Source: a virus. Taken from it: 64,000 bases of DNA. A model generated the notes under the pieces. The model had not been told where the DNA came from. It searched no databases and was given only the letters and a program-made list of their open reading frames with translations. This document shows positions 9,541 through 60,906 of this stretch, piece by piece. Location of the stretch: positions 30,959 through 94,958 of the IMG/VR virus record IMGVR_UViG_3300030616_000001; one strand, written 5' to 3'. The translations under genes and the position numbers were made by a program. Within the stretch, counting starts at the first letter, position 1; each line of letters begins with the position of its first letter.

Positions 9541-10080
9541 TCAGTTCATCGAAGCTCGGGACGCGGCCATCGCCTTTTGCGCCAGGTCCCGCGCGTCTTG
9601 GTCGGCCAGTGGGTCGGCGGCCTGTCGCATCAGGATCCGCGTCGCCGCCACCCGAAGGTCGTTCCAGTCCTTGCGTCGGTGCATCAGTTCCAGGACCTTG
9701 TTGACCGCGTCCTTGGACGCCTTGGCCTTGCGGTCGTCCACCACGTCCCGGAAGAACGCGGCCAGGATCCGGGGCTTCTGCTCGTCCGGTGCCGCGTGAA
9801 AGTCCGCGAGGAGGTGCTCATGGAACACCCCGTCGTCGATCTGCTGCGCCGCCTCTTTCATGATCCGGTCGAACTCGTCGGGCTGGACACCACCGTCGGC
9901 TCGGCTCACGCACCGGCAGATGATCGGGATCTGCTGCGGCCCGTTGCCGTCGCCCAGGTCGGCGTTCTTGTACCCCACGATCCCGCGGCCGTTGCACCGC
10001 TTGCACCCGGGCTTGGCCTTGGCCAGGTCCACGTGCTTGGCAAGCCGCACACGAGGCGGCGCCTGATCACGCTTGGTCAT
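9541..10080 (-). CDS. Hypothetical protein with Cys motif CKRCNGRG
   Basis: 179 aa. N-terminal CKRCNGRG and CRC resemble half of a DnaJ-type zinc finger; the rest is helical and charged. The start overlaps the preceding gene by 14 nt. Found within the packaging module; role unknown. Confidence 0.6.
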   Translation of the reverse strand: MTKRDQAPPRVRLAKHVDLAKAKPGCKRCNGRGIVGYKNADLGDGNGPQQIPIICRCVSRADGGVQPDEFDRIMKEAAQQIDDGVFHEHLLADFHAAPDEQKPRILAAFFRDVVDDRKAKASKDAVNKVLELMHRRKDWNDLRVAATRILMRQAADPLADQDARDLAQKAMAASRASMN

Positions 10081-10660
10081 CGTCCCCCTCCAGTTCCTTG
10101 ACCCGTCCCTGCCACCACCGCCGCAGACAGCCGCGGCACTTGGTCTTGCCGAAGTCCTTGGGGTGGTGACGGCACTTCGTCTCCCTGTCCACGTGCGTCC
10201 CTGTGCCTGGTTCTGCCCGTTGGAAGTGGTCACGTAGGGTTCCGGTCGGGACCAGGACGCGGACAGGCGGCAGGTCCCCGTCTCGGACCACGCACGGCAC
10301 CAGGAGTTCCATGTGGTCGGGGCCGCCAGTGAACAGGTCCGGTCGGATCTCCACCGCCTCCTCCCACACCTCGTCGCACTCCTCGATGTCCTCGAGGGCG
10401 CGTTCGAGCTCGGCGTCGTCCACGTCCACCTCGGTGCCCCCGGGAAGGCCCAGGCGCAGACCCAGGACCCGCTCCCACTGGTCGTCGTTGACCGCGGCGA
10501 TCACGGTGTCGTTCAGGGTAACGAACGCCTTGCCCGCGAGGGCGCGGTATGGGTGCTGTGCAATCTCGGTGGTCACGGTCACGTCTCCGTTGTCGTAGCG
10601 GCTGTACTCCGCGCCGGTTTCCACATCGCGCATGGTCGTGGATTTAGAACGGGTACTCAT
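10067..10660 (-). CDS. Hypothetical acidic protein with C-terminal Cys/His cluster
   Basis: 197 aa from an ATG preceded by GAGGACGAGC, preferred over an upstream in-frame start at 10675. The middle is acidic (AELERALEDIEECDEVWEE) and the C-terminus has CRHHPKDFGKTKCRGC, a likely zinc site. It overlaps the end of TerL by 17 nt. Function unknown. Confidence 0.6.
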   Translation of the reverse strand: MSTRSKSTTMRDVETGAEYSRYDNGDVTVTTEIAQHPYRALAGKAFVTLNDTVIAAVNDDQWERVLGLRLGLPGGTEVDVDDAELERALEDIEECDEVWEEAVEIRPDLFTGGPDHMELLVPCVVRDGDLPPVRVLVPTGTLRDHFQRAEPGTGTHVDRETKCRHHPKDFGKTKCRGCLRRWWQGRVKELEGDDDQA

Positions 10661-12234: not shown

Positions 12235-12831
12235 CTACTTCTTCTTGCCGCTCACCTGGAACTTGTGGCCGCACTCGGGACACGTCGCCTCCACGGTGAT
12301 CGTCACGTTGGACTTCGCGTCCTTCTTCTCCTGGAGGGCCTTCAGCTGCTCGTCGTTGGCCTTCTTGAACGCGTTCCAGTCGAAGTCGACCATCTGGGAG
12401 AACCCCTCCAGGGTTTCCCGGTCGAACGGCATCGTGGTGTTGAGGTCGGCCACGTTGAACTCGGCGCCGCTGCCGCTGGTCATCTCCTTGATCAGGACCG
12501 CCAGCTTGGCGTCGTCGCGCTTGAACTTCGTCTCGTTCGTCTCGATGGCGATCCGCCACGCCTGGGAGTCGGTGATCGGGCCAAAGTTGAAGCACACCGC
12601 TTTCTTGATCCCCAGGTGGTTGAACGCGGCGAGGCGGTGGTTCCCGTTGATCACCTCGAAGAACCCCGTGTCCAACTCGCGCACTAGGATGTTCTCCACC
12701 TGACCGTTGCGCTTGATGTTGGCGATCAGCTTCTCGGCCTGGTCCGGGTCCTCCACCTTGTAGTTCCAATCGGCGCCTACGAGCTTGCCCACGGGCAACT
12801 CGATCCATCGCGGGTCATTGAGCTTGGCCAT
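12235..12831 (-). CDS. ParB/Srx-fold protein with C-terminal zinc ribbon
   Basis: 198 aa. Residues about 10-110 match the ParB N-terminal domain: a KLVGADWNY start, then NGQVENILVREL and VINGNHRLAAFNHLGI, the NG-HR nucleotide-binding motif. The C-terminus has CPECGHKF, half a zinc ribbon. No partner ParA is present. Such single ParB-like proteins in phages may be nucleases, NTPases or regulators. It overlaps dpdA by 17 nt and precedes terL, so a tie to DNA modification or packaging is possible. Confidence 0.78.
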   Translation of the reverse strand: MAKLNDPRWIELPVGKLVGADWNYKVEDPDQAEKLIANIKRNGQVENILVRELDTGFFEVINGNHRLAAFNHLGIKKAVCFNFGPITDSQAWRIAIETNETKFKRDDAKLAVLIKEMTSGSGAEFNVADLNTTMPFDRETLEGFSQMVDFDWNAFKKANDEQLKALQEKKDAKSNVTITVEATCPECGHKFQVSGKKK

Positions 12832-13678
12832 CGCGCATCTCCTGTTGCGCCGTGTCGGCGCGTGTCTGGTCGTTCCACTCGATCCCGCGCTCGCGCCACA
12901 TCGACGTGACGGACTCCTGGAGGCGGTGTCGTTTCATCAGCCACCGCGTGAACCGCACCTTGCACTTCTCGGCGCCAGCCAGGTCCTCGCGTTGTTCAAC
13001 TTGGGCGGCGAGCACGGCCTCGACGGTGTTGAGTCCCTTCTCGGCCAGGTCCCGCAGCTTGTAGGTGCGCCCGTCCTGCATGTGCCACGTCTTGTTGCCC
13101 GCCTGGAGGGATCCGGCCGACGAGTCCGCGGAGTAGAACGGGTAGCGGCGCAGGATCTTCTCGCTGCCCACGCCGAACATATGGATCTTGCGGGTGTCCC
13201 GGTACTTGGCCAGGACGCGGGCGTATAGGTCGTCGAGCCAGATGATCTTCGCCGCGTCGCTCTTGCCCACCACGCCGCCCAGGCAGAAGAACTCGTACCG
13301 CTCGGCCAGTTCCTCGAGCACCGCGATCGGCTCCCCGAAGTGGTAGGTGGGCAACGGCGCGAACCCCGCCTCCTCCATGACCCGCTGGTTCTCCGCGCTG
13401 GCCACCGGGTCGCCGATCACGTCCAGCCCGGCGTACACGTCGATCAGGTGGGACCGGTCGGCGATGAACTTCATGTACTCGTCGATGTCGATCTCGATGC
13501 CCAGGGTGTTGGCGCTGTGGGCGCCGCTGTCCAGGAAGAAGTGGAACCTGTCGTCGAGCAGGTCCACGGTGGGCAGGAACCGCTGGGCGTAGACGTAGCT
13601 GATCAGGACGTTGGGATACAGCGTCTCGATCACCGCCTCGAGATCCTGGCGCTTGATCACGACCTCGAACACCCTCAT
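12815..13678 (-). CDS. dpdA: DpdA-like DNA 7-deazaguanine transglycosylase
   Basis: 287 aa, TGT-fold. LDSGAHS (about 52) and GLDVIGD (about 84) match the active-site regions of the family; LGGVVG and HMFGVG match later barrel strands, and YSADSSAG follows. The length and the lack of the usual tRNA-TGT zinc Cys set favour the phage DpdA type. The enzyme exchanges guanine in DNA for a 7-deazaguanine base, here probably preQ0 since the cluster ends at QueC. The start overlaps the queE stop (ATGA); another in-frame ATG lies at 13690. No sign of frameshift. Confidence 0.85.
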   Translation of the reverse strand: MRVFEVVIKRQDLEAVIETLYPNVLISYVYAQRFLPTVDLLDDRFHFFLDSGAHSANTLGIEIDIDEYMKFIADRSHLIDVYAGLDVIGDPVASAENQRVMEEAGFAPLPTYHFGEPIAVLEELAERYEFFCLGGVVGKSDAAKIIWLDDLYARVLAKYRDTRKIHMFGVGSEKILRRYPFYSADSSAGSLQAGNKTWHMQDGRTYKLRDLAEKGLNTVEAVLAAQVEQREDLAGAEKCKVRFTRWLMKRHRLQESVTSMWRERGIEWNDQTRADTAQQEMRDGQAQ

Positions 13679-14265
13679 GACAGCCCCCATGCCTTGTGCG
13701 CCTGGACGTTGAGCCGCCAGGGAATCTCGCTGGTGTTCTCCTCGATCAGGTGGACCGCCCACCGCACGTTCTCGGGAACCAGGCGGTCCCCGTCGTACGC
13801 GGGGGACAGGAAGTAGTTGTCCGCGGCGATCAGTGGCACCGGGATCTTGCACCCGGCCTCCACGATGTACTTCAACTCGGCGACGGGGCGGCTGAAGTTC
13901 TCGATCAGGCGCGACGGGCCGACCTTGGGACTGACCACCACGTAGTCTATCCCCTCGGGCACGGCAAGCGTGCCGTTGGTTTCGATTGTGAGCATGGCGC
14001 CGAGCGCGTGGAGTGCGCGGACCAGAACGTTGTCGACCTGGAGCGCGGGTTCGCCGCCGCACAGGGACACAACGTCGGCCCCCAACTCCTCGACCTCGTC
14101 CAGGATCATCTGGAGGGACATCTCCCTGGCGTTGACGTGCTCCTTGGTGTCGCAGAACGGGCAGTTGAGGTTGCACCCGCTGAACCGCAGGAACGTGGTT
14201 GGGATGCCGATCCTGGCGCCCTCGCCCTGGATCGACCGCACGATCTCGTGGACCTTGTACAGCAT
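13675..14265 (-). CDS. queE: 7-carboxy-7-deazaguanine synthase QueE
   Basis: 196 aa radical SAM enzyme that turns carboxytetrahydropterin into 7-carboxy-7-deazaguanine. SIQGEG near the N-terminus and CNLNCPFCDT (about 33) give the family's atypical cysteine cluster; LCGGEPALQ and IETNGTL are the SAM-binding strands. Length is normal. It overlaps the queC stop by one base (TGATG), so the pair is translationally coupled. Confidence 0.93.
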   Translation of the reverse strand: MLYKVHEIVRSIQGEGARIGIPTTFLRFSGCNLNCPFCDTKEHVNAREMSLQMILDEVEELGADVVSLCGGEPALQVDNVLVRALHALGAMLTIETNGTLAVPEGIDYVVVSPKVGPSRLIENFSRPVAELKYIVEAGCKIPVPLIAADNYFLSPAYDGDRLVPENVRWAVHLIEENTSEIPWRLNVQAHKAWGLS

Positions 14266-15020
14266 CAGTTGTGCCCCCTCTCGTCCCGGTGCGCCCGGTC
14301 GTAGGCCAGTTGCTCCGGGGTCTTGACATTCTGCTCCCCGTCGTACCAGCCGCCGGCCCACAACGCTTCCTCCCGCTGGCGGCATGAGTCGCACTCGCCG
14401 CAGTGGGCGTCGCCGTCCAGGTAGCACGACCACGTGGCGTCGTAGTCCACGCCCAGCTTGCGCCCCAGGTCCACGATCCTTGCCTTGGGCCAGGTGGCGA
14501 ACGGAGCACAGATCCGCGGGTGGAACGACGGGTCGGTGCCCTCCCGGGCCGCACGCTCCATCGCCTCCACGAACTCGAGACGGTCGTCCCAGTAGTTGCC
14601 GCTGTCCAGGCCGTTGGCGCCGAGGTAGATGCTGCTGATCCCGTGGGCCTCGGCGAACCCGACCGCGTAGGCCAGGAAGATCCCGTTGCGGAACGGGACG
14701 TAGCTGGCCGGCGTGCCGCCCTCCTCGATCTGGCCGCGACTGCGCCCCTTCGGAAGCCCCTGGACCGCGCTGGTGTTGGCCTTCAACAGGCCGCACTCCG
14801 GGGCCATCCACCCCATGTCCACCCGCACGATCTTGGTGGTGGCGCCGTACTTCTGCGCGTTGTCCACGGCAACGTCGAGCTCACGCCGCAGCGTCTGTCC
14901 GTAGTCGAAGATCAGTGCGACGATCTCCTCCGGGTTGAGCAGGTGCATGTTCTGCATCCGCGCCAGGCACGTGGTACTGTCGATCCCGCCTGACAGTAGG
15001 ATCACCGCTCCTCGATTCAT
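14265..15020 (-). CDS. queC: 7-cyano-7-deazaguanine (preQ0) synthase QueC
   Basis: 251 aa. LLSGGIDSTTC (about 8-18) is the PP-loop that binds ATP. The C-terminal CGECDSCRQR with an upstream Cys forms the zinc site. It converts the carboxy precursor plus ammonia to preQ0. There is no amidotransferase (Gat) fusion as in phages that make an amidino base, so free preQ0 is the expected end product. It follows folE by three bases. Confidence 0.93.
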   Translation of the reverse strand: MNRGAVILLSGGIDSTTCLARMQNMHLLNPEEIVALIFDYGQTLRRELDVAVDNAQKYGATTKIVRVDMGWMAPECGLLKANTSAVQGLPKGRSRGQIEEGGTPASYVPFRNGIFLAYAVGFAEAHGISSIYLGANGLDSGNYWDDRLEFVEAMERAAREGTDPSFHPRICAPFATWPKARIVDLGRKLGVDYDATWSCYLDGDAHCGECDSCRQREEALWAGGWYDGEQNVKTPEQLAYDRAHRDERGHN

Positions 15021-42611: not shown

Positions 42612-44081
42612 CTAGTAGTCGTCCGTCCAGTGGCGCGGGGTATCCTGCGCCGGTTTCTCTCTGTCGTTGAAGAAGTCGTCCTGTGCGGGCGCCGGTGCCG
42701 CGTCGGGCGGCGGCGCTCCGTCGTGCTTGGGTGCCACGTACTTCCCGGACTTCTCGTCGGGGAATGGGCCGTCCCGGTCTACCTCCCATGACCGAATGTA
42801 CATCCGAGTCATGTCCGACCACAACCTGATCGTGCCTGTCTTGCCGTGAGTGGCCTTCGCCACGATCAGCTGCATGTCCGGGTCCTCCTCGCAGCCTTGC
42901 TTGTAGTAGCCGCGGCGGTACACGAACCACACCACACGAGCAGCCTGCTCGATGGCGCCGCTCTGGCGCAGATCGTGCAGGGAAGGGCGCCGATCCCGGC
43001 GGTGCTCGACCTCGCGGTTCAGCTGGCACGCGAGCACCACGGGGATGTCCAGTTCCTTGGCGATGTCACGGCACCCCTTCGCCGCGTTCTCGATGCTGTG
43101 TGTCTGGTTGTCCCCCTTGTCCGTCAACTCCCCGAGGTGGTCCACCACGAGAAGGTCCAGGCCGTGCAGTTGCTTGTGGAGCGCCGCGATCTGGCCGATG
43201 CGCTCCGAGGACAGGCCCGGGGTGTCGTCAACCCACAGGGGCAACCCGTGGATCTTGTTCGCCGCCGACATGATCGGCCGCCAGTCGTCGGGGTGGACGG
43301 TCCGCATCATCAGGTCGTTGAGGTCCACGTCGGCGAACCGGGCCAGTTCCCGCATCGTCACGTAGCGCCGAGCGTCCTCGGTTGGAATGTACAAGGTGTG
43401 GCGCCCGTCGAGCGCGGCGTTGGTGAGCATGTTGAGGACGAACGCCGACTTGCCCATGCCCGGTCTGCCGCCGACGATGGTGAGGAGGCCCGGCCACAGG
43501 CCGCCGGTGAGGGTGTCCACGTTCTCGATACCGGTGCGGACCAGGCCCGGCGGCATCTTGCCAGTCTCCAGGTCGCTGATCAGACCCGCCAACTCCTCAC
43601 CGATCTTGACCGGTCCTTCCATCGCCCCAGTGGTGGCCGCGATGGTGACCGACTTCCGTGCCGCGGCCAGGTACTCGGACACGTTCTCCACGCGCCCGAA
43701 TCCGCGAGCCACAATCTCCTGGGCCGCGTAGATCATCCGGCGCACCGCCGCCTGCTCCTTGACGATCTTGGCGTAGTGCTCCACGTTTGCCACCGTCGCC
43801 ACCGAGTCGGTGAGTTCCCCGATGATCATCGGGCCGCCGATCTTGTCCAGGTCCCCGCGCTTGATCAACTCGTTGCCCAGCGTCACCGCGTCGATCACCG
43901 ATCCGGCGCGGGAAAGCTCGAGCATTGCGTTGTAGATCCTGCGGTACGCGTCCACGTAGAAGTCGGACTGGTCCGAGATGGCGCCGCCGACGATGGGCAA
44001 CGCGTCGTTGTTGAGCAGAACCGCGCCGAGACACGCCCCTTCTGCTTGTTTGTCGTAAGGTGGCACTCGTCCCTCGATCAC
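42612..44081 (-). CDS. DnaB-family replicative helicase
   Basis: 489 aa. An N-terminal domain (AEGACLGAVLLNND) is followed by the RecA-like core: GGRPGMGKSAFVLNM (about 207) is Walker A, LDLLVVDHLGELTD includes Walker B, and VVLACQLNREVEHR with LRQSGAIEQAA covers motif 4. It unwinds DNA at phage forks. The tail (about 450-489) is Pro/Ala/Asp-rich. The start overlaps the initiator stop (ATGA), so loader and helicase are coupled. Confidence 0.93.
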   Translation of the reverse strand: MIEGRVPPYDKQAEGACLGAVLLNNDALPIVGGAISDQSDFYVDAYRRIYNAMLELSRAGSVIDAVTLGNELIKRGDLDKIGGPMIIGELTDSVATVANVEHYAKIVKEQAAVRRMIYAAQEIVARGFGRVENVSEYLAAARKSVTIAATTGAMEGPVKIGEELAGLISDLETGKMPPGLVRTGIENVDTLTGGLWPGLLTIVGGRPGMGKSAFVLNMLTNAALDGRHTLYIPTEDARRYVTMRELARFADVDLNDLMMRTVHPDDWRPIMSAANKIHGLPLWVDDTPGLSSERIGQIAALHKQLHGLDLLVVDHLGELTDKGDNQTHSIENAAKGCRDIAKELDIPVVLACQLNREVEHRRDRRPSLHDLRQSGAIEQAARVVWFVYRRGYYKQGCEEDPDMQLIVAKATHGKTGTIRLWSDMTRMYIRSWEVDRDGPFPDEKSGKYVAPKHDGAPPPDAAPAPAQDDFFNDREKPAQDTPRHWTDDY

Positions 44082-45265
44082 CTCACTCCTCCTTTCCCAC
44101 GGCGGGTGGAGCGCACTCTCTCCTCCAGGTCCGTGCCGTGTCTGTATTGGTCGTCGTCGCTGCGACGGGCCGGTTTATCCTGGTCCCGCACCGCAGCGTT
44201 CCAGATGAATCGCCCGAGATCGCGCTTTGCCTTGCGCGGGTTTGCGTAGGTCCACCCAGCGAGCTTGTTGACCAGGGCGGCCACGTCCACGTTGGGACAG
44301 GAGTCATCGAGCTTGGCCGCAAGGCCGACGCCGCGCTTGTTGCCGATGTTCTCCCACATGGTCTGTTCGCCCGCGCCAGGCACGGTGAACTGGACAGTCT
44401 GCATCGCGTGGTAGATCGCCCGGAGCCTGTCCGATGCCCCGGGAGGTGGAGGTGGAGGACCAGGATCGCCGAGAGGGAGGGAAGGCGGATCCCGCCTGAC
44501 CTCACCACCTCTCTTCCCTGATCCTGATCCTGATCCCTGATCCTGATCCTGATCCTGGCTTCCCAAGGGTGGGACGTGACCCTTCTCAAGGGGTGGCACC
44601 TGACCCTTCTCAAGGGGTATCGGATCCACCGTCTGCCAGAACGCGGCCACGTCGGCTGCGATCTTCTCGGGGTGACACGCGACGCACAGGAATTGCAGGT
44701 TGGTCACGTCGTCGCTGCCGCCCAGGATCTTCGCCACCACGGTGTCCACTTCCAGGTCCTCCGTGGCGCCGCACCTGGCGCACTGGTTGCCGCTGCGCTT
44801 GATCAACTCGCGCATCGTCGAGATTTTCGGCCGCCAGCGATAGGCTTTCGGACGGACACCGTGCAAGTGATAGGCGTCACGGTACTTGGCGATGAACAGG
44901 GGCACCAGTGGTGAGACGATCCTCTCCAACTCCCTCACCACGGCGGTGCGCCGGTTGTCCTTCGGCGCGAGCTCCTCCGCGACTTGGAACCGCGCCATCT
45001 CGAGAACGAACACGGTTTCGGTGTCGTGGTCGTAGACGCAGAACCCCATGTCGCAGAGTCGCGCCATCGCGTCGGTCACGGCACCGATCGCCAGGCCCGT
45101 GTCCTGGGCGATGTACATGATCGGGCAGTAGTACAGGCCGGTCATTGACGAGTGAGGGGACGTGATCAGATAGAGGGCCAGAACCTGCGCGTCCCGGTCG
45201 TCGCGCAACTCCTTGCCCGTGTCCCCGATCCAGAACCGGCCCGAAACTATGGAGTAGTCGCGCAT
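44078..45265 (-). CDS. Replication initiator-like protein with degenerate HNH insert
   Basis: 395 aa. The N-terminal 120 residues (DDRDAQVLALYLITSPHSSM, then AIGAVTDAMARLCDMGFCVY) look like a winged helix of phage replication initiators. Residues about 163-202 are an HNH-type knuckle (CARCGATEDLEVDTVV, GGSDDVTNLQFLCVACH) in which the usual His of the DH pair is Thr. A repeat-rich linker leads to a C-terminal domain with a WTYANPRKAKRDLGRFIW segment, like helicase-loading domains. It probably brings DnaB to the origin. Confidence 0.7.
   Translation of the reverse strand: MRDYSIVSGRFWIGDTGKELRDDRDAQVLALYLITSPHSSMTGLYYCPIMYIAQDTGLAIGAVTDAMARLCDMGFCVYDHDTETVFVLEMARFQVAEELAPKDNRRTAVVRELERIVSPLVPLFIAKYRDAYHLHGVRPKAYRWRPKISTMRELIKRSGNQCARCGATEDLEVDTVVAKILGGSDDVTNLQFLCVACHPEKIAADVAAFWQTVDPIPLEKGQVPPLEKGHVPPLGSQDQDQDQGSGSGSGKRGGEVRRDPPSLPLGDPGPPPPPPGASDRLRAIYHAMQTVQFTVPGAGEQTMWENIGNKRGVGLAAKLDDSCPNVDVAALVNKLAGWTYANPRKAKRDLGRFIWNAAVRDQDKPARRSDDDQYRHGTDLEERVRSTRRGKGGVR
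44518..44557. repeat. Short tandem repeat of ATCCTG units
   Basis: About six near-perfect 6-nt units inside the initiator gene's linker, coding for QDQD and GSGSG. A duplicated CCCTTCTCAAGGGGT segment follows (PLEKG repeated). Likely slippage-prone. Confidence 0.7.
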
Positions 45266-45268
45266 CGC

Positions 45269-46507
45269 CTAGTTTTTGCGGCGGCCGCGGCCCGTTCCGT
45301 TCTTCTTGGCTCCTCGGCGCCCACCGGATTGGTCACCGTCCCCGAAGAAGTCGTTCTTCTGCTTCTGCTGCTCGCGCTCGAACTCCTCGGCCTCGGCCCG
45401 CTCCCTGGCCAGGATCTCCTCCTGTTCCTCCGGGGTGGGTTCGTCGCCAGGTGCCTCAGATTGGTCCATGCCGTCCTCGTCGTCGGGACCGGGGTCCTGG
45501 TCGGGTTCCACGTGAGTGTCCTCCTCGCGTGGGGCGTCGTCCACCTGCACACCCGTCTCCGCCAGCATCTGCTGCTTGAGGCTGCCCATCCTGGTCAAGC
45601 TCACCCCCTGGGCCGCACCGTCGCCGGCGGCGGTGGGCTGGTCGTCGGCCTCGATGGAGGTGCCGACCACGTTGGTGGCCACATCGGCGAGGGACTGACC
45701 GCGCCCGGACTCGGCAAGGCTGATCAGGGCCGCGGCCTTGTCGAACTCGGGGGACAGGTCCCAGAACTTGGCGGACCAGCGGACAGCGGTCTTCTGCGCC
45801 ATCGCCTCGATGTAGGTGATCCACGGGACGCGGCGGATCGCCGCGGCGTTCATCTCCTTCTCCGGCTCGTTCTCCTTCCACCGCTTCCAGAACACCTCGG
45901 ACCCGTCGTCGCGCCGCTCCACGCGGATGTTCTTGTCGGCCAGGACCCGGTCCCGGTGTTTGAAGATCGCGGTCATGGGGTACGGCTGGCCGAAGTCGTA
46001 GAACCCGTCGTGGTAGCGGAGCGCGGCGTATACCGCGACCATCTTGCCCCGTGGCTTGCGCACGTCCCACGTGTGATTGAGGAACGGGTCGCTGCCCAGC
46101 TGGTGGGCGAACGAGTCGTGCTCGTGGACGATGATCGCCTCCACCTTGCGGACCAGGGGGTCGCGGCGGGCCAGCTTCATCAGGCCGCGGTACTGGACCT
46201 GCAATTGTGTCAGGCGCTGCCACTGCCAGGAGCCGTCGTCGGCCTTGTACTTGGACGACCTGGACTCCAGGTAGGCCTCGCCCAGCGGCCCCTCGAACCG
46301 CACGCCCAGGGTGGCCGCCTCCAGGACCGCGCCCAACGTGGACTCGGGGACGGCGTTGAGGACGTCCTTGTCGCTGCCGATGTGCGTCAGCGCGGAGTTG
46401 ATCCACGCGTCTGTGCTCATGCCGTCGGGCAGGGACTCGTCGATCATCTCCCTGATCCCGGCCGACTCGAGCCAGCCTTCGATCTTGCGGTAGTTCGGAT
46501 GTGCCAT
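45269..46507 (-). CDS. recT: RecT-family single-strand annealing protein
   Basis: 412 aa. The core includes VLEAATLGVRFEGPLGEAYL, QVQYRGLMKLARRDP, VRKVEAIIVHEHDSF and KTAVRWSAKFW, all typical of RecT. The last 90 residues are acidic then Lys/Arg-rich and probably bind SSB or other partners. It anneals ssDNA made by the exonuclease next door. Start MAHPNYRK at 46507 is preferred to an earlier in-frame site. Confidence 0.9.
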   Translation of the reverse strand: MAHPNYRKIEGWLESAGIREMIDESLPDGMSTDAWINSALTHIGSDKDVLNAVPESTLGAVLEAATLGVRFEGPLGEAYLESRSSKYKADDGSWQWQRLTQLQVQYRGLMKLARRDPLVRKVEAIIVHEHDSFAHQLGSDPFLNHTWDVRKPRGKMVAVYAALRYHDGFYDFGQPYPMTAIFKHRDRVLADKNIRVERRDDGSEVFWKRWKENEPEKEMNAAAIRRVPWITYIEAMAQKTAVRWSAKFWDLSPEFDKAAALISLAESGRGQSLADVATNVVGTSIEADDQPTAAGDGAAQGVSLTRMGSLKQQMLAETGVQVDDAPREEDTHVEPDQDPGPDDEDGMDQSEAPGDEPTPEEQEEILARERAEAEEFEREQQKQKNDFFGDGDQSGGRRGAKKNGTGRGRRKN

Positions 46508-46523
46508 GTGCCTCTTCCTTCCC

Positions 46524-46536
46524 GGGGCTGCGCCCC
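46524..46536 (-). promoter_or_regulatory. Leader hairpin before recT
   Basis: GGGGC and GCCCC pair around a 3-nt loop at the exonuclease stop, just upstream of the recT ribosome site. One of a family of such hairpins. Confidence 0.45.
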
Positions 46537-47759
46537 TACTGTAGTTTGCCCGCCACGGCATCGGCTGCTTGCTCGATGGCGGCGCGTATCTCTCCCAGTT
46601 CCATCTCCAGCATCGCCGCGTACAGGTCGGCCCTGGCCCGCAGCTCGTCGAACGCCTCCACGCCGGCCTCCAGATCGAAGTCGGTGGTGGCGAACTCCTG
46701 GAGTTCCTTCTGCACGGTCATGACCCCGGCATCCGTTGCCTCGTCGCCCGTCTCGGCGCGGTCCTTCGGCCCGAAGTAGCGGAACGACTTGTACGGCTTG
46801 CCCTGCACCTCGTACTTGGACAGGTCCATGTTCGGGTGGTCCGCCTGGAGGGCCTTCTTGTCGAACACCTTACGACCTGCCTGCTCCCTGTGAAGGAATT
46901 TGTGGCGGCCGACTTGGACCGCGTCGATTCCGGCCTCGCCCATGACGTCCATGATCATCGCCTTGGCTGCGTCCATTGCCCGCTTCGCCGCGAGCTCACG
47001 CTCCTTGGCCAGCTTGTACGTGTCCACCGCGTCCTTCCACCCCTTGCCGTCCATCTGCTTGTAGACGGTCTTGCCGGCCTTCTTCGTCTCGGGCTGCTTG
47101 AACGCGACCGCCGCCGGAGGCACGTTCTTCTCCACGTGCTCGCGCCAGAACCTGCGGGCGTTGTCCTGGAGGATCGTGCTGACGTCCGGGTCCAGGGGCA
47201 ACTCCACGACCTGCAGGGCCACGTTCTCGCACTCGTAGATCACAACCCTGGTGCCCTTGATCTTGCCCTTCCACTCGTCACCCAGGTACGGCAGGGTGCA
47301 CACGTTGGCGCAGTGGGCGAGGTGGGCGGACTGGATCATGTAGTAGTCCCGGATCCCGCTGGTGCGGAACGAGTCGGCGACCCGCTGCATCGGGGACTTG
47401 ATCTCCAGGACCCACCCGTCGGCGCACAGTCCGTCGAAGTCGGCGAACATCGGCGAGTCTGGGTCGTCCACCTGGAAGCCGTGGTAGCGTTCCTGGTCTG
47501 TCTGCGGCGCGTACACCTTGATGCCCGACTGCGCCTCGTACATGGCGGCGGCCAGCGGCTCGTAGGTGTTGCCACGGCGCAGGTGCGGGTTGTCCTCCTC
47601 GGCGGCCACGTCCTCGGCGGTGATCGTCCGCTTCTTGGAGATGTACAGGTCCACCGGGGTCTTCTTGAACACCTCTCCCAGCGCCAGGATCGGCGAGTCC
47701 GAGGATCCCACTCCCCGCTGCCTGCCCTGGAGCCACTTGACTTTCTCTGCGATGTTCAT
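46536..47759 (-). CDS. YqaJ/lambda-exonuclease family nuclease
   Basis: 407 aa. GVGSSDSPILALGE, the LRRGNTYEPLAAAMYE block, FADFDGLCADG with WVLEIKSP (about 120) give the PD-(D/E)XK catalytic set; IQSAHLAHC follows. It resects dsDNA 5' ends to feed RecT. The C-terminal 200 residues, including coiled-coil stretches, are longer than usual. Typical exonuclease/RecT gene pairing. Confidence 0.88.
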   Translation of the reverse strand: MNIAEKVKWLQGRQRGVGSSDSPILALGEVFKKTPVDLYISKKRTITAEDVAAEEDNPHLRRGNTYEPLAAAMYEAQSGIKVYAPQTDQERYHGFQVDDPDSPMFADFDGLCADGWVLEIKSPMQRVADSFRTSGIRDYYMIQSAHLAHCANVCTLPYLGDEWKGKIKGTRVVIYECENVALQVVELPLDPDVSTILQDNARRFWREHVEKNVPPAAVAFKQPETKKAGKTVYKQMDGKGWKDAVDTYKLAKERELAAKRAMDAAKAMIMDVMGEAGIDAVQVGRHKFLHREQAGRKVFDKKALQADHPNMDLSKYEVQGKPYKSFRYFGPKDRAETGDEATDAGVMTVQKELQEFATTDFDLEAGVEAFDELRARADLYAAMLEMELGEIRAAIEQAADAVAGKLQ

Positions 47760-47771
47760 CGCTACTCCTTT

Positions 47772-48950
47772 CTACGCGAGGCCCGGGTATGGGTCCTCGT
47801 GCCGCACGAACGCGGCTACCTCGTCCGTCCCACCACGGTGGGAACACCCTTTCCGATACGGGCACTGGGACCCGTGACCACGACACGCCGCACCGTTGCG
47901 CGGCCAGATCCGCGCCGACCTGTGGTGCTCCTCCACGCCGATCAGCGCGTGGACGTCCGCGACCCACGCCTTGACGGCCTCCACGGTGGACTCCACACCG
48001 ACACGGTACGCGAACGTCTCGCCGCGGCCGATGATGCGCTCGAGCGCGGACGCGCACCGCTCGTTCTCCACGTCGGGATCCAGCCCGTTGGCGCGGACCG
48101 TCGCGTTCCACTGCTCCAGGGACGTGTCACACGCCGACCTGGACATGCCGCCGACGCCCGAACCGTTGCACTCGCCGCACTGCTTGGTGACCACCTCCCC
48201 GTCCTCGTCCTTCCGTGACGGGATCGTTCCCTTGCCCTTGCAGTTGCGGCACTTGATCGTCTCGGGGATCGCCGGGGCCTTGGTCCGCACCACCTCCACA
48301 GTGGCGGCGGTGATCGTGGTTTCCGCTGCCTTGGACGCGATCCACATCGCAGCGGCGAGCCACTGGTCGAGTTCCATGTCGTCGGCGACGGTCTGGGGGT
48401 CTGTGGTGGACGTGAACTTGCGGACCAGGACCGCCGGTCCCAGCTGGCCACGGTCCAGGACCCCGTCGATCCTGGCGGCGTAGGTGATGTCACCGAGGCC
48501 CAGCGGGAACTCGACCACCCTGTCCACGAGGGGGCGGCCGGTCTTGTCCACCATGAACTGCGGGTCGGAGATGCCGCCGAGGGTGTCCCCGTAGTGGGCC
48601 AGGATCCGCATCGCCTCGTCGGCGATCTCCTCGATGGTACAGGTCCACCGTTGCGCCTCGTCGCGCCCCATCTCACCGACCATCCGCAGCAGTTCGTGTC
48701 TGTACGCCATGACCACCGCGTCCGCGGCGGCCCGGGTCCTGATCGCGCTCAACCCGCGCACCACGGCCCGATCCCGCTCGTGGAGTGCGTCGGCGAGCAC
48801 CGACTTGATCCTGGGCGGCCACGGCGCGTGGCGGCGCCCTTTCAGTCTCCAGTTGTCCTCGTACTCGATGCGGAACCTGCGCGGGCACGTGGCCAGCGTG
48901 GTCAACATCGTCCTGGTCCGCCTGTTGGGCGGCCGTGTTTGGTTCTCCAA
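47772..48950 (-). CDS. Cas4/AddB-like PD-(D/E)XK protein with internal DnaJ-type zinc finger
   Basis: 392 aa from TTG at 48950 behind AAAGGAGGAGG; an ATG follows at 48908. LTTLATCPRRF (about 22) and AACRGHGSQCPYRKGC (about 357) supply the four cysteines of an Fe-S cluster as in AddB and Cas4. The core has RIDGVL but VRKF where D/E-x-K is expected (about 177), so nuclease activity is doubtful. CRNCKGKG and CGECNGSG (about 235-270) form a DnaJ-like zinc finger inserted in the fold. Confidence 0.72.
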   Translation of the reverse strand: MENQTRPPNRRTRTMLTTLATCPRRFRIEYEDNWRLKGRRHAPWPPRIKSVLADALHERDRAVVRGLSAIRTRAAADAVVMAYRHELLRMVGEMGRDEAQRWTCTIEEIADEAMRILAHYGDTLGGISDPQFMVDKTGRPLVDRVVEFPLGLGDITYAARIDGVLDRGQLGPAVLVRKFTSTTDPQTVADDMELDQWLAAAMWIASKAAETTITAATVEVVRTKAPAIPETIKCRNCKGKGTIPSRKDEDGEVVTKQCGECNGSGVGGMSRSACDTSLEQWNATVRANGLDPDVENERCASALERIIGRGETFAYRVGVESTVEAVKAWVADVHALIGVEEHHRSARIWPRNGAACRGHGSQCPYRKGCSHRGGTDEVAAFVRHEDPYPGLA

Positions 48951-48981
48951 GTGCCTCCTCCTTTCGGCCAATGGCTGCGGC

Positions 48982-49245
48982 CTACTGGGCGTCGGCGTCC
49001 ATCGTCGGCATGAACGCCTCACCGTACTCGTCCGGGCTGACCTCCTCCAGAATCTCGTCCGTGCCCACGTGGAGCGCGGAGCAAATGTCGCGCAGGAGCG
49101 ACGCCTTGGGGTCGCCGCGTTGGAGGATGTCGTGGAATCCCTGGGGGGTCTTCCCGACTCGCTCTGCAATCTCCCGCAGCGTCAGGCCGCGGCGCTTGCA
49201 CAGCAACTCCACACGCGCCTTGAAGTGGTTCACCTTCGTTCCCAT
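48982..49245 (-). CDS. XRE-family helix-turn-helix regulator
   Basis: 87 aa. LTLREIAERVGKTPQGFHDI (about 20-40) is a Cro/CI-type HTH, with an acidic C-terminus. The start has GGGAGGTGCAG before it; a longer in-frame start at 49302 lacks this. It heads the recombination/replication genes and may control them. Confidence 0.78.
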   Translation of the reverse strand: MGTKVNHFKARVELLCKRRGLTLREIAERVGKTPQGFHDILQRGDPKASLLRDICSALHVGTDEILEEVSPDEYGEAFMPTMDADAQ

Positions 49246-49310
49246 CTGCACCTCCCGTTCAAAGGTTGTAGACACCGATCTGTTCAACTCTGTACATAAC
49301 ACGGTTGTTT

Positions 49311-50268: not shown

Positions 50269-50598
50269 TCATTGATCGTGGGGTCCCTGGGGTCCCATGA
50301 TCCACGTGATCAGGGCGTCCCCGTCGATAACCCGGACCATGACAGGACCCCTGCGGTCCAGCGCGTGGAGAGCGGCTCCCATGCCCACTCCCAGACCATA
50401 CACAACCCTCCCGTGGTCCTCGGAACGGACTGGGGACCCGGCACGGACCGCCCGGAGGTACTCCCCGAACGCCTCGTATATCCGGGTCGCCCCGTCCCTG
50501 TCCTTGATCTGCTTGTCCCGGATCAAGTCGGCCAGCGCGTCCATCCGACGGGCCGCGTTGCTGGCTGCGAATTGATCCGGCGGTCGCTTGGTTCCCAT
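50269..50598 (-). CDS. Hypothetical small protein of AAA-VWA cassette
   Basis: 109 aa starting MGTKRPPDQFAASNAARRMD. Helical first part and beta-rich end (GPVMVRVIDGDALITWIM). Last gene of the AAA-VWA set, five bases after the VWA gene, so probably co-expressed. Confidence 0.6.
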   Translation of the reverse strand: MGTKRPPDQFAASNAARRMDALADLIRDKQIKDRDGATRIYEAFGEYLRAVRAGSPVRSEDHGRVVYGLGVGMGAALHALDRRGPVMVRVIDGDALITWIMGPQGPHDQ

Positions 50599-50603
50599 CG
50601 GCC

Positions 50604-52073
50604 TCACACCTTCCCGAAGAGGTGGTGCATGTCCCGCTCGTCCGCCATCGCGTCCCGCAGCACCACCGTCTCGTCGCTGAACTGCTCGTTGATCTCGGTC
50701 CTGGTCGCGGACCCGACGAGGATCGAGTTGCACGCGAAGTCCAACTCGTCCCGGTCCCGGTTCCACTTGGCCAGCCACTCGTCGGTGACCCTGGCCCGCC
50801 CGTCCGTCACCATGACGATGTCCGCCTGCTTGAACTCGCCCTGCTCGCGGATAACCTCGACGCACCGGTCCAGGCTGTCCATGAAGTTGGTCCCACCGTC
50901 GGCGGCGAAGAAGCTCACCGCGTCGGTGATCGCCTCGGGCGTCATCGCGTCCTTGCCGGGGAACTGGTCCACCCGGAGGACGCCGTGGCCGAAGTGCACG
51001 ATGGCGAAGCCGCGGTTCTGCTCCTTGGCAACCTGCATGAAGGCCAGGCAAACGGCGGCGGCCCACACGTCGGCGTCCCCCGCCCCCATCGAACCGGAGG
51101 AGTCGAGGCACATGATGATCGGCCCCTTGTGGTCCTTCTGCTTGTCGGCCTTCTCGGTGCAAGCGAGGGAACGCTCCGCGTACTTGGCGGCGAAAACGTG
51201 CCTCATGCCCGGGGTCCCGTAGACCAACTCCCGGAAGCACAGGTTCCCAAGGTCGTTCGAGAACCGGCGGCCCACCCGCTCGCCCGCGCCCTTGCGGGGC
51301 TTCCGGCGCTGCTGGTCACTGGCGATCCTGCGGAGGCGTCCGGCCAACTCCGCGATCTTGCGGAGGCGGGCGTTGTCGTTCACCACCTTGGCCAGTTGGT
51401 TGCCCACCGCCATCTGCGCCTTCCTGCCGCTGTGCACGTCCAGGCCGATCCCGTACGCGTCGATCATCGCCTGCATGGCCGCAATCTGGCCGTTTGCGTT
51501 GGCGGCGGCGTCACGGAGTGCCTGGCGCACCTGGGTCATGTCCAGCTCCTCGGCGGCACCCTCGGCCGCTTCCCGCTTCTCGCCCATGCCCTCCAGGACC
51601 TCGTCCAGGGTGTCCTCGATGGCCTCGCACTCCTCGTCGTCGCCCCGCTCCTCCGCGTCCGCCAACAGGCGCTCCAGGTACTCCACCACGTCGGCGTCGC
51701 TACGCACGTCCTCCACCGGCGTGGAGGGTGCGGTGACCTTCCGCAGCAGGTCGTCGATCATCGAGGAGGTTACCATCCCGGCCCACGTGTCGTTGCCCAC
51801 GGTCTGTGCCCGCAGGTCCGCCACCTCGGGAACCTCGCGCATCGCCGCGTCCAGGCGTTGGAACACCTCCGAACCCGCGGCCGGCTCCTCGAGCCGCTCC
51901 GGCGTGTCGGCGTGGAAGAAGTGGAACATCTCGGCGGCCCAGTCCGGGAACGCCTCGTAACGGTCGCGCCCGTCGGCCTCGGCACGGGCCGCGTTCTGGT
52001 CGGCCAGCGTGTGGTCGTTCCACAGGTGCCGCTGGAACTCGCTGGGCCGGTATATGAGGTTGTGTGTCGTCAT
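50604..52073 (-). CDS. VWA-domain protein (ViaA/CobT-like)
   Basis: 489 aa. The N-terminal 250 residues are helical and charged; the C-terminal VWA domain has the metal-site DSSGSM (about 326), GGTNFMD and VTDGRA. The plan matches ViaA and CobT, which work with MoxR-type AAA+ ATPases. It follows the AAA gene by 12 nt. Expected to use ATP-driven remodelling on a phage or host target. Confidence 0.8.
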   Translation of the reverse strand: MTTHNLIYRPSEFQRHLWNDHTLADQNAARAEADGRDRYEAFPDWAAEMFHFFHADTPERLEEPAAGSEVFQRLDAAMREVPEVADLRAQTVGNDTWAGMVTSSMIDDLLRKVTAPSTPVEDVRSDADVVEYLERLLADAEERGDDEECEAIEDTLDEVLEGMGEKREAAEGAAEELDMTQVRQALRDAAANANGQIAAMQAMIDAYGIGLDVHSGRKAQMAVGNQLAKVVNDNARLRKIAELAGRLRRIASDQQRRKPRKGAGERVGRRFSNDLGNLCFRELVYGTPGMRHVFAAKYAERSLACTEKADKQKDHKGPIIMCLDSSGSMGAGDADVWAAAVCLAFMQVAKEQNRGFAIVHFGHGVLRVDQFPGKDAMTPEAITDAVSFFAADGGTNFMDSLDRCVEVIREQGEFKQADIVMVTDGRARVTDEWLAKWNRDRDELDFACNSILVGSATRTEINEQFSDETVVLRDAMADERDMHHLFGKV

Positions 52074-52085
52074 CGTCCGTTCCTC

Positions 52086-53276
52086 CTACAGGCTCGCCGG
52101 GCGGAACATGGTGATCTCGCGGCCCCGGTCCACCAAGGCCTTGATCGCGCTCTCCACCACGTCCACGGCCTCGTTGACCTGCTCGTTGTCCTCGCCCACC
52201 TTGTCCACGACCTCCATGATCGCGTCGCGCCGCCCCGCCAGCTTGCCCTGGATCTCGCCCAGGACCTTGGTGGCCGCGGTCTTGGTGAGGGTCCCGGTCT
52301 TGATGTCGTCCAGGGTGGGCAGTTCGCGCATCGCGATCCGCACCCCGTCGATGATCGAGGTGGCACGGGCACCGTAGGGGTCCGCCGCGTTCCCGATGGT
52401 CTTGAGGAGTTCGGGGCGGCCGTCGTGGGTCTTCCAGATCACGTCGGCCAGGACCAGGAAGTCGCCGGGCTGCACCGTGGCGTGGCCGTTGACCACCGCC
52501 CTGGCGCGTACCAGCTTCGGCGCCTTGCCGATCCACGTCCGGTCACTGGCCGTGAACCCCGCGTCCTCACAGGCCCGCTTGACCGCCAGGAGGATCTTGG
52601 CCTCGTCCAGGCCCCACGGGACCGCGGCGGCCGCGTCGCGGAGCTTGTCCAGATCGCCGCTCTCCATCTTCGCGGTGATCTCGGCCGGCCCGTCCACGAG
52701 CAGCTTGAGGAGGGCGTCCTGGTCGCCGATGTAGTCCAGCCAGAACTTGACGGCGAAGCGGTCGTAAAGGGCGTCCAGGCTGGCGTCCTCGGGGTATTCG
52801 TTGCTCGCCCCGATCACCGTCTCCAGGGGCAGGTCGATCATGTCCGCGCCGTTCCGCATCTTGCGCTGCTGCATGGCCAGGAGGAACCCGTTGAGGAGGG
52901 CGGAGTTGGACTTGAAAATCTCGTCCAGGAACCAGACTTGCCGGTCCGGGGCGCACCCGTCAACTCGCCGCTGGTAGCGGTCCTCCTCCATCATTGCCTT
53001 GGCCGAGAACATGCCGAACACCTCCTCCGGGGCGGTGTCCTTGGTCAGCTGGATCTCGAAAAACGAGGACTCGATGCAGCGGCTCAACGCCTCGGCGAAA
53101 TCGCTCTTGGCCGTCCCGGGAGGTCCCAGGAGTAGGCAGTGGTCCTTGGCCAGAAGGGCGGTGAGGACGCCGTCCACCGGCCCGCTGCGCTCCACGAACC
53201 TGGCCTTCAACTCGCGCCGGATCGCCTGGAACCGCTCGGCCGCCGTGGTGGTCTTGTTGGTCTTGGTCTTGGTCAT
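52086..53276 (-). CDS. MoxR/RavA-type AAA+ ATPase
   Basis: 396 aa from MTKTKTNKTT behind GGAGG; in-frame starts further up lie over the promoter. LLLGPPGTAKSDFAEAL (about 53) is Walker A, VWFLDEIFKSNS (about 117) Walker B, and DALYDRFAVKFW carries the Arg finger. MoxR proteins act as chaperone-like remodellers with a VWA partner. It has its own strong promoter. Confidence 0.85.
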   Translation of the reverse strand: MTKTKTNKTTTAAERFQAIRRELKARFVERSGPVDGVLTALLAKDHCLLLGPPGTAKSDFAEALSRCIESSFFEIQLTKDTAPEEVFGMFSAKAMMEEDRYQRRVDGCAPDRQVWFLDEIFKSNSALLNGFLLAMQQRKMRNGADMIDLPLETVIGASNEYPEDASLDALYDRFAVKFWLDYIGDQDALLKLLVDGPAEITAKMESGDLDKLRDAAAAVPWGLDEAKILLAVKRACEDAGFTASDRTWIGKAPKLVRARAVVNGHATVQPGDFLVLADVIWKTHDGRPELLKTIGNAADPYGARATSIIDGVRIAMRELPTLDDIKTGTLTKTAATKVLGEIQGKLAGRRDAIMEVVDKVGEDNEQVNEAVDVVESAIKALVDRGREITMFRPASL

Positions 53277-53360: not shown

Positions 53361-53388
53361 ATAATACATATTTCAACGTACCGGTCAA
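53361..53388 (-). promoter_or_regulatory. Promoter of AAA-VWA cassette
   Basis: TTGACC (53388-53383), a 16-nt spacer and TATTAT (53366-53361), preceded by an A-rich tract. The TTGACC-N-GTAC start is shared with the promoter at 59065-59092. Confidence 0.7.
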
Positions 53389-53768: not shown

Positions 53769-55286
53769 CTAGGCGGTCTTCTTGGTCTTCTTGGCGGCCT
53801 TGCGGCCCTTCCCGGCGGTGATCTCCTTCTCCTTGGCCGCGGCCTCGCGCTCGCGCTTCTTCGCGGCACGGGCCTTGTCCTTCTCGGCCTTGGCCTCGGC
53901 CTTGGCACGGGCCTCCTCCTCGGCCTTGATCTCCTCCTCGGCCTTCTTGCGCTCCAGGGTGGCCATGACGGTCTTGGCGGCGGCGTCCACCTTGGCGGTG
54001 AGGTCGTCCACGAGGGTGCCCAGGATGCTCTGGAACAACTCGGCGCGGTTGCGGAGGGTGTCGAACTCCTCGACCCGCTTCTCCAGGGTGTTGACCCGGA
54101 TCGTGTTCCACCCCTCGGCCTCGTACTGCTCCAGCTGTGCCGCCAACTCGCCCAGCTGGGACTCGAGGCCGTGCCGGGTCGCCTCCTGGAGGGACTCGAT
54201 CGTCTCGGCGGTGTCGAAGCACGGGATGATCACGGTGGTCTGCTTGAGCATCTTCATGAACCCGTTCCAGGCGCGGACCTGCTCGGCGTGCACGGCGGGG
54301 ACGAACCAGAGGCCGCCGTGGGGCAGGGACGGGACGGCGTGCCAGTTGCGGAACGCGAACTGGAAGGCGCTCCGCACGTCGCCGGTCAGATACGTGTAGG
54401 CCAGCTCCTCGTAGGCCTCGCGCAGGGCAACCGCCGCGGGGTGGGCGGGGTCCTGGAGCTTGAGGCAGTCCTTCGGCTCGGCGCCCTCGGCGTACTTGGC
54501 CCGGTCGAACCCGACCTTGGTCACGGTGGTGAAGGACGCGTCCTTCTTGCTGACCTTGTTCCCGGCGTCGTCCACGAGGTTGCGCTCCACGATGCTGTGC
54601 ACGATCCGGTTCTCGTTGTCCTCGACCACCACGGCGTCCTCGACGCGGCACTCCTTCCGGCCGGAGTTGAAGACCAGGCTGATCGCCTTCTTGTAGCACG
54701 CGATCGGGGTGTTCTTGGGCAGGCGCAGCTGGTCCAGGATGCCGCACGCCGTGGCCGCGGCCTCCACGTCGGCCTTGAGGTGCGTCCCGGACAGGCTCCA
54801 CCCCACGAGGTCACCGAGGTGCTTGCCGTTGTCCATCGAGATGGCCTCGGCGACCTTGCGGATCTTGCCCTTGGCCTCGATGCTGGGCTTCGGGGCGGCG
54901 GGCTTGGTCGTGTCCGGCTCGGGCGCGGCCTCTGGGGCGGGCTCGGCGGCGGGCTTGACGGCGCCCTTGGAGGGGGCGGGGCGGGTGGACTTGGTGCCCT
55001 TGTCCTCGGTGTCGGCGGGCACGGTGACCCCGGCCTTGCCCGGGTCCACGCCCCGGGCCTCCAGCTGGGCCAGGGTGATCGCGGCGGGCGTGTTGTCGCA
55101 CCCCAGCGCCTTGGCGGTGGCGGCGGCGTACTCGGTGGCCACCTTGTCCATGTCCCCGGACTTGGCGGTGGCGATGGCCTTCAGGTAGGCACGGGCGAGC
55201 TTGCGCGTCTCGGCGTCGAACACGTCGCGGGCGCGGCTGATGGCCTTGGCGTTACGGGTCATGGTCTTGATCTCGGCGTTGGTCAT
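53769..55286 (-). CDS. Large early protein with coiled-coil C-terminus
   Basis: 505 aa from ATG at 55286 behind GAGGAGG. An Ala/Pro-rich linker (about 100-145) divides a helical N-terminus from a conserved-looking core that includes LPHGGLWFVPAVHAEQVRA. Lys/Ala/Glu coiled coil fills the last 90 residues. Its place next to the AAA-VWA genes recalls phage sets in which a third protein of unknown function joins CobS/CobT-like proteins (DUF3150 or DUF6744 types, from memory). No catalytic motif seen. Confidence 0.65.
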   Translation of the reverse strand: MTNAEIKTMTRNAKAISRARDVFDAETRKLARAYLKAIATAKSGDMDKVATEYAAATAKALGCDNTPAAITLAQLEARGVDPGKAGVTVPADTEDKGTKSTRPAPSKGAVKPAAEPAPEAAPEPDTTKPAAPKPSIEAKGKIRKVAEAISMDNGKHLGDLVGWSLSGTHLKADVEAAATACGILDQLRLPKNTPIACYKKAISLVFNSGRKECRVEDAVVVEDNENRIVHSIVERNLVDDAGNKVSKKDASFTTVTKVGFDRAKYAEGAEPKDCLKLQDPAHPAAVALREAYEELAYTYLTGDVRSAFQFAFRNWHAVPSLPHGGLWFVPAVHAEQVRAWNGFMKMLKQTTVIIPCFDTAETIESLQEATRHGLESQLGELAAQLEQYEAEGWNTIRVNTLEKRVEEFDTLRNRAELFQSILGTLVDDLTAKVDAAAKTVMATLERKKAEEEIKAEEEARAKAEAKAEKDKARAAKKREREAAAKEKEITAGKGRKAAKKTKKTA

Positions 55287-55392: not shown

Positions 55393-55420
55393 ATTCTACA
55401 GGTTTCAAGTGCTGCGTAAA
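55393..55420 (-). promoter_or_regulatory. Promoter of 505-aa protein gene
   Basis: TTTACG (55420-55415), a 16-nt spacer and TAGAAT (55398-55393), with an A-rich upstream tract that could act as an UP element. The region 55312-55497 has no other gene. Confidence 0.5.
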
Positions 55421-59842: not shown

Positions 59843-60906
59843 TAGAAGGTCATCCACCCCGCCGGTGTCGCGTGGATCACCAGCTTGTCCCAGGCCACCA
59901 CGATCGCCGCGGGGCCGCCCGCGCCGTCGATGGTTTCGCCGCCGTTGGGCACCACGTTGATCGCGGCCACGCCGGCGTTGCCCATCGCGTCCTTGATCAC
60001 GTAAACCTTGCCCGGGGGCACGGTCGCCACTGCGGGCAGATCCACCTGGACCACACCACCCGTCGTGTCCACGTCCAGGATCACGTCGGCCGGCGCCGCC
60101 GGGTAGGGGGACATGCCGAAGTTGACCGTGGTCAACGCCATGACCCCCTCCACCAGCGACTGGACCGCGCTGTGGTCGGTGCCGTCACCGGTCCGGTGGG
60201 CGTCGTTCAGCGCGACGTTGGCGTGGTCGGAGCCGTCGCCCAGGGCGTGGGCGCGGTTGGACTTGACGAGACGGGCCGAGCTGAGGCTGAGCCAGCCCAC
60301 GCCGTCGCTGATGAAGGCCGCACCTTCGTTGTTTGAGGCGATGGTAAACGCGGCGGCCACGCCGTCGATGGTTTCCGCGCCGTCGGGGGTCACCGCGATC
60401 TGGTTGGCGCCGGCGCCCTGGGTGTGGTCCAGGACGCTGATCACGCGCCCCGTGCGGTTCGCCGCCGAGGGCAGGTTGACCACGGACGGGCCGCCGATCC
60501 CGGTCGTGTCGACGAGGACCGCGTCCACGCCGTCGGCGACGGCGTAGGGGGTTGCGGCCATCTCGTAGATCGCCCCGGTCGGGCCGAGCTTGGTCCAGTC
60601 CGCGCCGTTCCACGCGATCTCGTCGCCCGCCTCGAACTCCTGGCCCGTGTTGGTCTTGGTGGGGTCGTTGTCCACGACGTCGGCCTGGACCTCGTAGACC
60701 CAGCCGTTCTGCACGTCGCCGGGATCGGGGAAGTCCGCGGCCACCGCGACCGCCCCCTTGAACAGCATGGGGTTCGTCATCGTGGCGACGGCGGCCTCGT
60801 TCGCGTTGACCTGCGCGATGATCTCGTTCGTCTTGGTGACGAGCACGCTGTCGCTCGGCCCCATCACGCCCGAGGCCTGGTCCTGTGTGACCTGATCGAT
60901 TGCCAT
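59842..60906 (-). CDS. Fibre protein with tandem beta modules
   Basis: 354 aa. SDSVLVTKTNEIIAQVNANE at the N-terminus is loosely like the anchor of the other fibres. Two ETIDG modules (about 185 and 330) each end in a GW or GWMTF segment. Between them HALGDGSDHANVALND and HRTGDGTDHSAV repeat, common in tail fibres. Probably binds the host surface. Confidence 0.72.
   Translation of the reverse strand: MAIDQVTQDQASGVMGPSDSVLVTKTNEIIAQVNANEAAVATMTNPMLFKGAVAVAADFPDPGDVQNGWVYEVQADVVDNDPTKTNTGQEFEAGDEIAWNGADWTKLGPTGAIYEMAATPYAVADGVDAVLVDTTGIGGPSVVNLPSAANRTGRVISVLDHTQGAGANQIAVTPDGAETIDGVAAAFTIASNNEGAAFISDGVGWLSLSSARLVKSNRAHALGDGSDHANVALNDAHRTGDGTDHSAVQSLVEGVMALTTVNFGMSPYPAAPADVILDVDTTGGVVQVDLPAVATVPPGKVYVIKDAMGNAGVAAINVVPNGGETIDGAGGPAAIVVAWDKLVIHATPAGWMTF

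Follow-up and report, generated by a model that had tools for sequence, protein, structure and literature searches.

A three-gene module of DUF6744, RavA-type AAA+ and VWA proteins in phages and plasmids, with a possible role in recombination and replication

Among the closest described systems is RavA-ViaA of Escherichia coli, in which binding of LdcI is assigned to the LARA domain of RavA, and in which the middle domain of ViaA stimulates the ATPase of those RavA constructs in which the triple-helical region is retained (PMC10585395). MoxR-vWA ternary systems whose third protein is of another kind, namely of the VMAP, iSTAND and FtsH types, are proposed conflict systems (PMC7159879). A further three-gene arrangement, described for the plasmid pCAR1, consists of a CbbQ-type MoxR, a DUF3150 and a NorD-like VWA protein (PMC2642839). 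In addition, several reports describe MoxR-vWA pairs of viruses (PMC2147016, PMC7911831, PMC7824862). In the available text of these reports, AAA+ and vWA genes lie close together in 0305phi8-36 (orf66/63), Acidianus two-tailed virus (ATV, p618/p892), Hardycor1/HVTV-1 and the group 2.2 jumbo phages, whereas a DUF6744 partner, as found here, is not among the descriptions they give. Neither a mention of DUF6744 nor a description of the gene trio presented below was found in the open literature that was searched.

The window analyzed here comprises 64,000 nucleotides and forms the final 64 kb of a 94,958-base phage record from IMG/VR. The region 50269-53276 had been predicted to hold genes for an AAA+ protein, a VWA protein and a 109-residue partner behind their own promoter, with a 505-codon gene upstream, and this layout was confirmed in all parts. 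On the minus strand, the AAA+ ATPase (396 amino acids) is encoded at 52086-53276, the VWA protein (489 amino acids) at 50604-52073, the 109-residue protein at 50269-50598 and the 505-residue protein at 53772-55286, the latter with an ATG at 55286 in an ORF starting at 55394. A promoter scan identified a sigma-70-like promoter (TTGACC-16-TATTAT, 10/12; 53361-53388, minus strand) directly 5′ of the AAA+ gene, serving the AAA+/VWA genes, and a second one (TTTACG-16-TAGAAT; 55393-55420, minus strand) ahead of the 505-codon gene. These are the only two promoter-like sites in the 13.5 kb between 44500 and 58000, a count that is not significant on its own, since 1.1 sites are expected from shuffling. 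Both sites are also present, in the same arrangement, in the relatives L002 and L003.

The AAA+ protein is, judged by its sequence, a MoxR ATPase of the RavA subfamily. It matches the Pfam families bpMoxR (1.7e-44) and AAA_lid_8 (3e-9), and its motifs are complete, comprising Walker A (GPPGTAKS), Walker B (LDE), sensor-1 (SNEYP), the arginine finger (DRF) and sensor-2 (SDRTW). RavA was the best match in a profile search of the PDB (2e-72), the first match other than RavA following at 5e-16, and the alignment to E. coli RavA covers RavA residues 7-300 with 33% identity (hhalign 100%). The bpMoxR profile also matches E. coli RavA itself, which in addition carries LARA (1e-39) and RavA_C (2e-23). 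Neither of these two domains was found in the window protein by Pfam search, which is therefore RavA-like and not a RavA orthologue.

The VWA protein matches VWA_2 (4e-8) and has an intact MIDAS (DSSGSM, GGTN, VTDG), so that both proteins of the pair are motif-complete, as had been predicted. Its comparison with E. coli ViaA gave 99.3% in hhalign and 1e-14 in blastp. The 193 aligned columns start at ViaA residue 201, and the likeness thus extends past the VWA core. The original prediction had called the pair MoxR/RavA-like with a ViaA/CobT-like VWA partner. The RavA and ViaA assignments stand (2e-72 and 99.3%, respectively), whereas the likeness to CobT does not, as the CobT_C profile found no match at E ≤ 1 in the window VWA protein. 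The remodeling role ascribed to the pair is judged to be right as a prediction. In a relative (L005 4496-5870), an apparent frameshift, which could be a sequencing error, interrupts the VWA reading frame. Taken together, the pair resembles RavA-ViaA in the AAA+ core and lid, and its VWA protein equals ViaA in size and corresponds to it in the middle and VWA regions. It differs by the absence of LARA and RavA_C, by a separate DUF6744 gene and by its location on phages and plasmids.

The 505-residue protein matches DUF6744 (PF20529), one of the two families named for it in the original prediction, with 2.2e-15 and 56.8 bits against a gathering score of 27, and nine of nine scanned family members showed the match. 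The conserved domain spans approximately residues 145-445 and includes a helical hairpin motif near residue 400. The alternative that had been named for a profile check, DUF3150 (PF11348), was rejected, since no Pfam match was obtained up to E 10 and hhalign gave only 0.5% and 0.1%. An AlphaFold2 model was obtained with a pLDDT of 82.5 and a pTM of 0.70, and its fold found no PDB match at E ≤ 0.001. A structure search with this model matched a protein of the halovirus HVTV-1 (E 4e-13), which is inferred from gene length to be gene 25, and the DUF6744 profile found a relative within gene 25 (9908-10678, 1.8e-9). The annotated VWA and AAA pair of HVTV-1 (genes 57 and 59) lies about 15 kb from this gene, a further difference from the window module. 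Peptide-pattern scans of genome contigs found no DUF6744 relatives. An alignment of nine DUF6744 members was too diverse to yield a pattern for scanning.

The 109-residue protein had been regarded as a partner of the pair. The ORF exists, but a role as a core partner is rejected, as the protein was not found in L016 or in the plasmid modules. It was found in L002-L005 and L013 only, where a GPVMVR segment is conserved. Its predicted model has three helices and a beta hairpin carrying this motif, and no PDB match with E ≤ 0.001 was obtained. From its occurrence it is an accessory specific to the window phage lineage, and the third component of the module is DUF6744.

That the core unit is the trio of DUF6744, RavA-type AAA+ and VWA is well supported by the gene neighborhoods. 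The AAA+ and VWA genes adjoin DUF6744 in all 12 phage records that carry DUF6744, and the gene set is thus conserved in relatives. In PLSDB, DUF6744 was found in 20 plasmid records from Nocardia, Pseudanabaena, Streptomyces, Brevibacillus, Alicyclobacillus, Rubrobacter and Subdoligranulum. A RavA-like AAA+ and a VWA gene stand beside it in 13 of the 14 plasmid loci examined, which belong to Bacillota, Actinomycetota and Cyanobacteriota. The exception is a Subdoligranulum plasmid, whose bpMoxR gene is located about 45 kb from DUF6744 on the same plasmid. The order DUF6744-AAA+-VWA is found in the window lineage, a Moorella phage, Bacillota and cyanobacteria, the order AAA+-VWA-DUF6744 in actinobacterial plasmids and the order AAA+-DUF6744-VWA in L025/L026. 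The genes are adjacent in three different orders, which shows that the trio stays together despite rearrangement. Furthermore, the three proteins give pairwise distance matrices that correlate with one another (r 0.93-0.94, Mantel p 0.0005), with close relatives inflating r.

Viral AAA+/VWA pairs without DUF6744 were seen in the Aphanizomenon phage CL131 and in L028. In CL131 the MIDAS is degraded, the VWA protein having lost the MIDAS aspartate, and a protein with an LPD29 domain (7e-22; L009 758-1600) precedes MoxR in the place of DUF6744. A mobilizable Listeria plasmid with bcrABC carries a lone RavA-like AAA+ gene (L050 7998-8942) with no annotated VWA or DUF6744 gene adjoining, and similar matches occur in 13 Listeria plasmid records. 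In a Pseudanabaena plasmid, two WD40-repeat proteins are encoded just upstream of the trio (L045 346-6026), which recalls MoxR-vWA-beta-propeller systems.

In the window, the trio heads an operon in which genes for an HTH regulator, a nuclease, YqaJ, RecT, DnaD and DnaB follow downstream, all on the minus strand. The HTH regulator (48982-49302; PF13560, 3e-7) lies in the same gene string as the trio and is kept in relatives. It is followed by a protein that shows a CXXCXGXG zinc motif of the DnaJ type and a weak PD-(D/E)XK signal (47772-49061) and is always encoded directly before YqaJ. The YqaJ/RecE-like exonuclease (46536-47759; PF09588, 2.8e-16), the ssDNA-annealing protein RecT (45269-46561; PF03837, 1.5e-21) and a DnaD-like helicase loader with a DnaB-like replicative helicase (42612-45265) complete the series. 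In a single ORF at 44081-45265 (minus strand), the N-terminus resembles a helicase loader of the DnaD type and is joined to a region of HNH endonuclease. The gene order from DUF6744 to RecT is conserved in L002-L005, L013 and L016. Elsewhere, dnaN is located directly upstream of the trio in two Alicyclobacillus plasmids and directly downstream of the VWA gene in phage CL131, and ssb is located near the trio in Pseudanabaena. Several plasmid modules in Streptomyces and Nocardia have no recombination gene adjoining. In another part of the window, the C-terminal half of an ORF at 12818-14554 (minus strand) matches queuine tRNA-ribosyltransferase (phrog_887, 5e-41), and this ORF possibly encodes a DpdA-like enzyme of 7-deazaguanine DNA modification. 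Annotated QueC/D/E-like genes are also carried by HVTV-1.

The DUF6744 protein and the exonuclease have a sequence element in common. The C-terminal 44 residues of YqaJ (FDELRARADLYAAMLEMELGEIRAAIEQAADAVAGKL, encoded at 46539-46667) match the helical region of DUF6744 (FDTLRNRAELFQSILGTLVDDLTAKVDAAAKTVMATL). In a search of 4205 ORFs, an HMM built from DUF6744 found YqaJ at 1e-6 to 4e-12, the best shuffled ORF having an E of 0.65. In the opposite direction, an HMM built from YqaJ found DUF6744 at 2e-8 to 0.013, with the most distant homologues being weakest and the one of the Moorella phage being missed. A six-frame search of the whole 95-kb record gave exactly two copies of the motif, one in DUF6744 and one at the YqaJ C-terminus, and the hairpin is the most conserved block within the otherwise variable YqaJ tail. 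A relative (G007/L016) encodes, between YqaJ and RecT, a third protein with this same hairpin motif at its C-terminus (L016 7671-8558). The motif was not found in the plasmid records or in the DUF3150 system, and a search of INPHARED phages with the YqaJ peptide found none. YqaJ homologues outside the window lineage were too few for a comparison of the C-termini. Based on the sequence match, the hairpin is a candidate docking element. Since it is confined to the window phage lineage, it could also stem from an exchange of C-termini between neighboring genes, which is the null reading.

Based on these findings, we tentatively favor, at somewhat less than an even chance, that the trio forms a ternary remodeling module with DUF6744 as the adaptor and, as the most likely client, the phage's own recombination/replication machinery. 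In this module a hexamer of the RavA-subfamily AAA+ protein would be the motor, and the ViaA-like VWA protein would act as a co-chaperone that couples DUF6744 to it. DUF6744 would be a dedicated adaptor or scaffold replacing the built-in LARA of E. coli RavA, and its C-terminal helical hairpin may mark or dock the client, which the motor would load, unload or disassemble at the expense of ATP. In the window lineage the likeliest client would be the YqaJ exonuclease in the first place, together with RecT, as it carries the same hairpin. The physical complex, the adaptor role, the identity of the client and the direction of remodeling are the parts of this proposal which we infer. As its fold matched nothing in the PDB, DUF6744 is assigned the adaptor role by reasoning. 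The occurrence of the same trio on very different phages and plasmids suggests that it probably services the replication/recombination machinery of the element and not the virus particle. Host polymerase, defense proteins and the virion, which the original prediction had named as candidate targets, are less supported than these proteins of the element itself, as the trio is standard on plasmids and stands in the RecT/YqaJ/DnaB operon in the window lineage.

An unlikely alternative is that the trio is a virion-assembly chaperone, which folds or assembles head or tail proteins. Such a role is proposed for p618/p892 of Acidianus two-tailed virus and, in group 2.2 jumbo phages, for their MoxR-vWA pair (PMC7824862, PMC7159879), and a gene about 4.5 kb upstream of the trio (59845-60906) has a weak baseplate match. 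However, the trio is separated from the terminase and portal genes by about 40 kb and heads an operon of DNA metabolism. Moreover, it is a standard feature of plasmids, some of which, from Nocardia, also carry T4SS genes and a MOBP relaxase, and such conjugation-equipped carriers argue against a virion-only role.

It is just as improbable that the trio belongs to the ternary class of MoxR-vWA conflict systems and senses or disarms proteins of the host or of rival phages in defense or counter-defense. It shares with these systems (PMC7159879) a MoxR protein matching bpMoxR, a vWA protein and a dedicated third protein, and its distribution on mobile elements fits such a role. The third protein is DUF6744, however, and neither a VMAP, iSTAND or FtsH third protein nor a vWA-fused effector domain was found in the window module. 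In the loci read, the VWA domain is the last one of its protein, with no variable effector domain attached, and PADLOC gave no convincing match (IetA at 0.0045, P-loop only). The trio of the phage lineage is syntenic with DNA-metabolism and replication genes, outside any variable island.

We consider it decidedly doubtful that, early in infection, the motor acts on a host complex such as RNA polymerase, the replisome or a respiratory complex by extracting or inactivating it. E. coli RavA-ViaA does act on host complexes, e.g., fumarate reductase and LdcI (PMC10585395), but LARA, the domain for the host target, is absent here, and in several phyla the trio is carried by plasmids that must coexist with their host. 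Finally, a chaperone for metal insertion or cofactor maturation like CbbQO/NorQD/CobST, suggested by general MoxR roles and by the annotation of HVTV-1 gene 59 as 'porphyrin biosynthesis', is very improbable, as the ATPase is of the RavA subfamily and not of the CGN/CbbQ type (no CbbQ_C match in the Pfam search) and no cofactor enzyme is conserved beside the trio.

For remodeling of the element's own recombination/replication proteins, the pCAR1-type module (PMC2642839) offers a parallel. It follows the same principle of three genes on a mobile element, close to SSB, RecT and exonuclease genes, but has another AAA+ subfamily, and its DUF3150 has no profile similarity to DUF6744. In pCAR1, SSB and RecT are encoded about 10 kb beyond the CbbQ-type MoxR, DUF3150 and NorD-like VWA genes, and an E. 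coli conjugative plasmid carries SSB, RecT, lambda exonuclease, MoxR, DUF3150 and VWA consecutively. The DUF3150-VWA genes of an IncC plasmid, by contrast, are neighbors of transfer genes. Together with the window trio, the pCAR1 and E. coli plasmid trios point to two MoxR-vWA lineages with different third proteins, both beside RecT/exonuclease pairs.

A more far-reaching reading, which is possible but on the whole unlikely, is that DUF6744 founds a mobile-element-specific MoxR-vWA class remodeling recombination/replication complexes. Here the 44-residue hairpin shared by DUF6744 and YqaJ would act as a docking tag, through which the AAA+ protein loads or strips the phage exonuclease, placing Red/RecET-type recombination under AAA+ control, and the unrelated DUF3150 modules would have converged on the same job.

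MoxR-vWA machines are widespread, but few of their clients are known. A third protein that is strictly co-inherited on phages and plasmids is a concrete handle, as it offers candidates for the adaptor, for the client (YqaJ/RecT) and for the docking motif. If the proposal is true, recombination in phages and plasmids would be controlled by an ATP-dependent chaperone, and one shared function could be given to many plasmid genes now annotated as DUF6744, 'AAA family ATPase' or 'VWA'.
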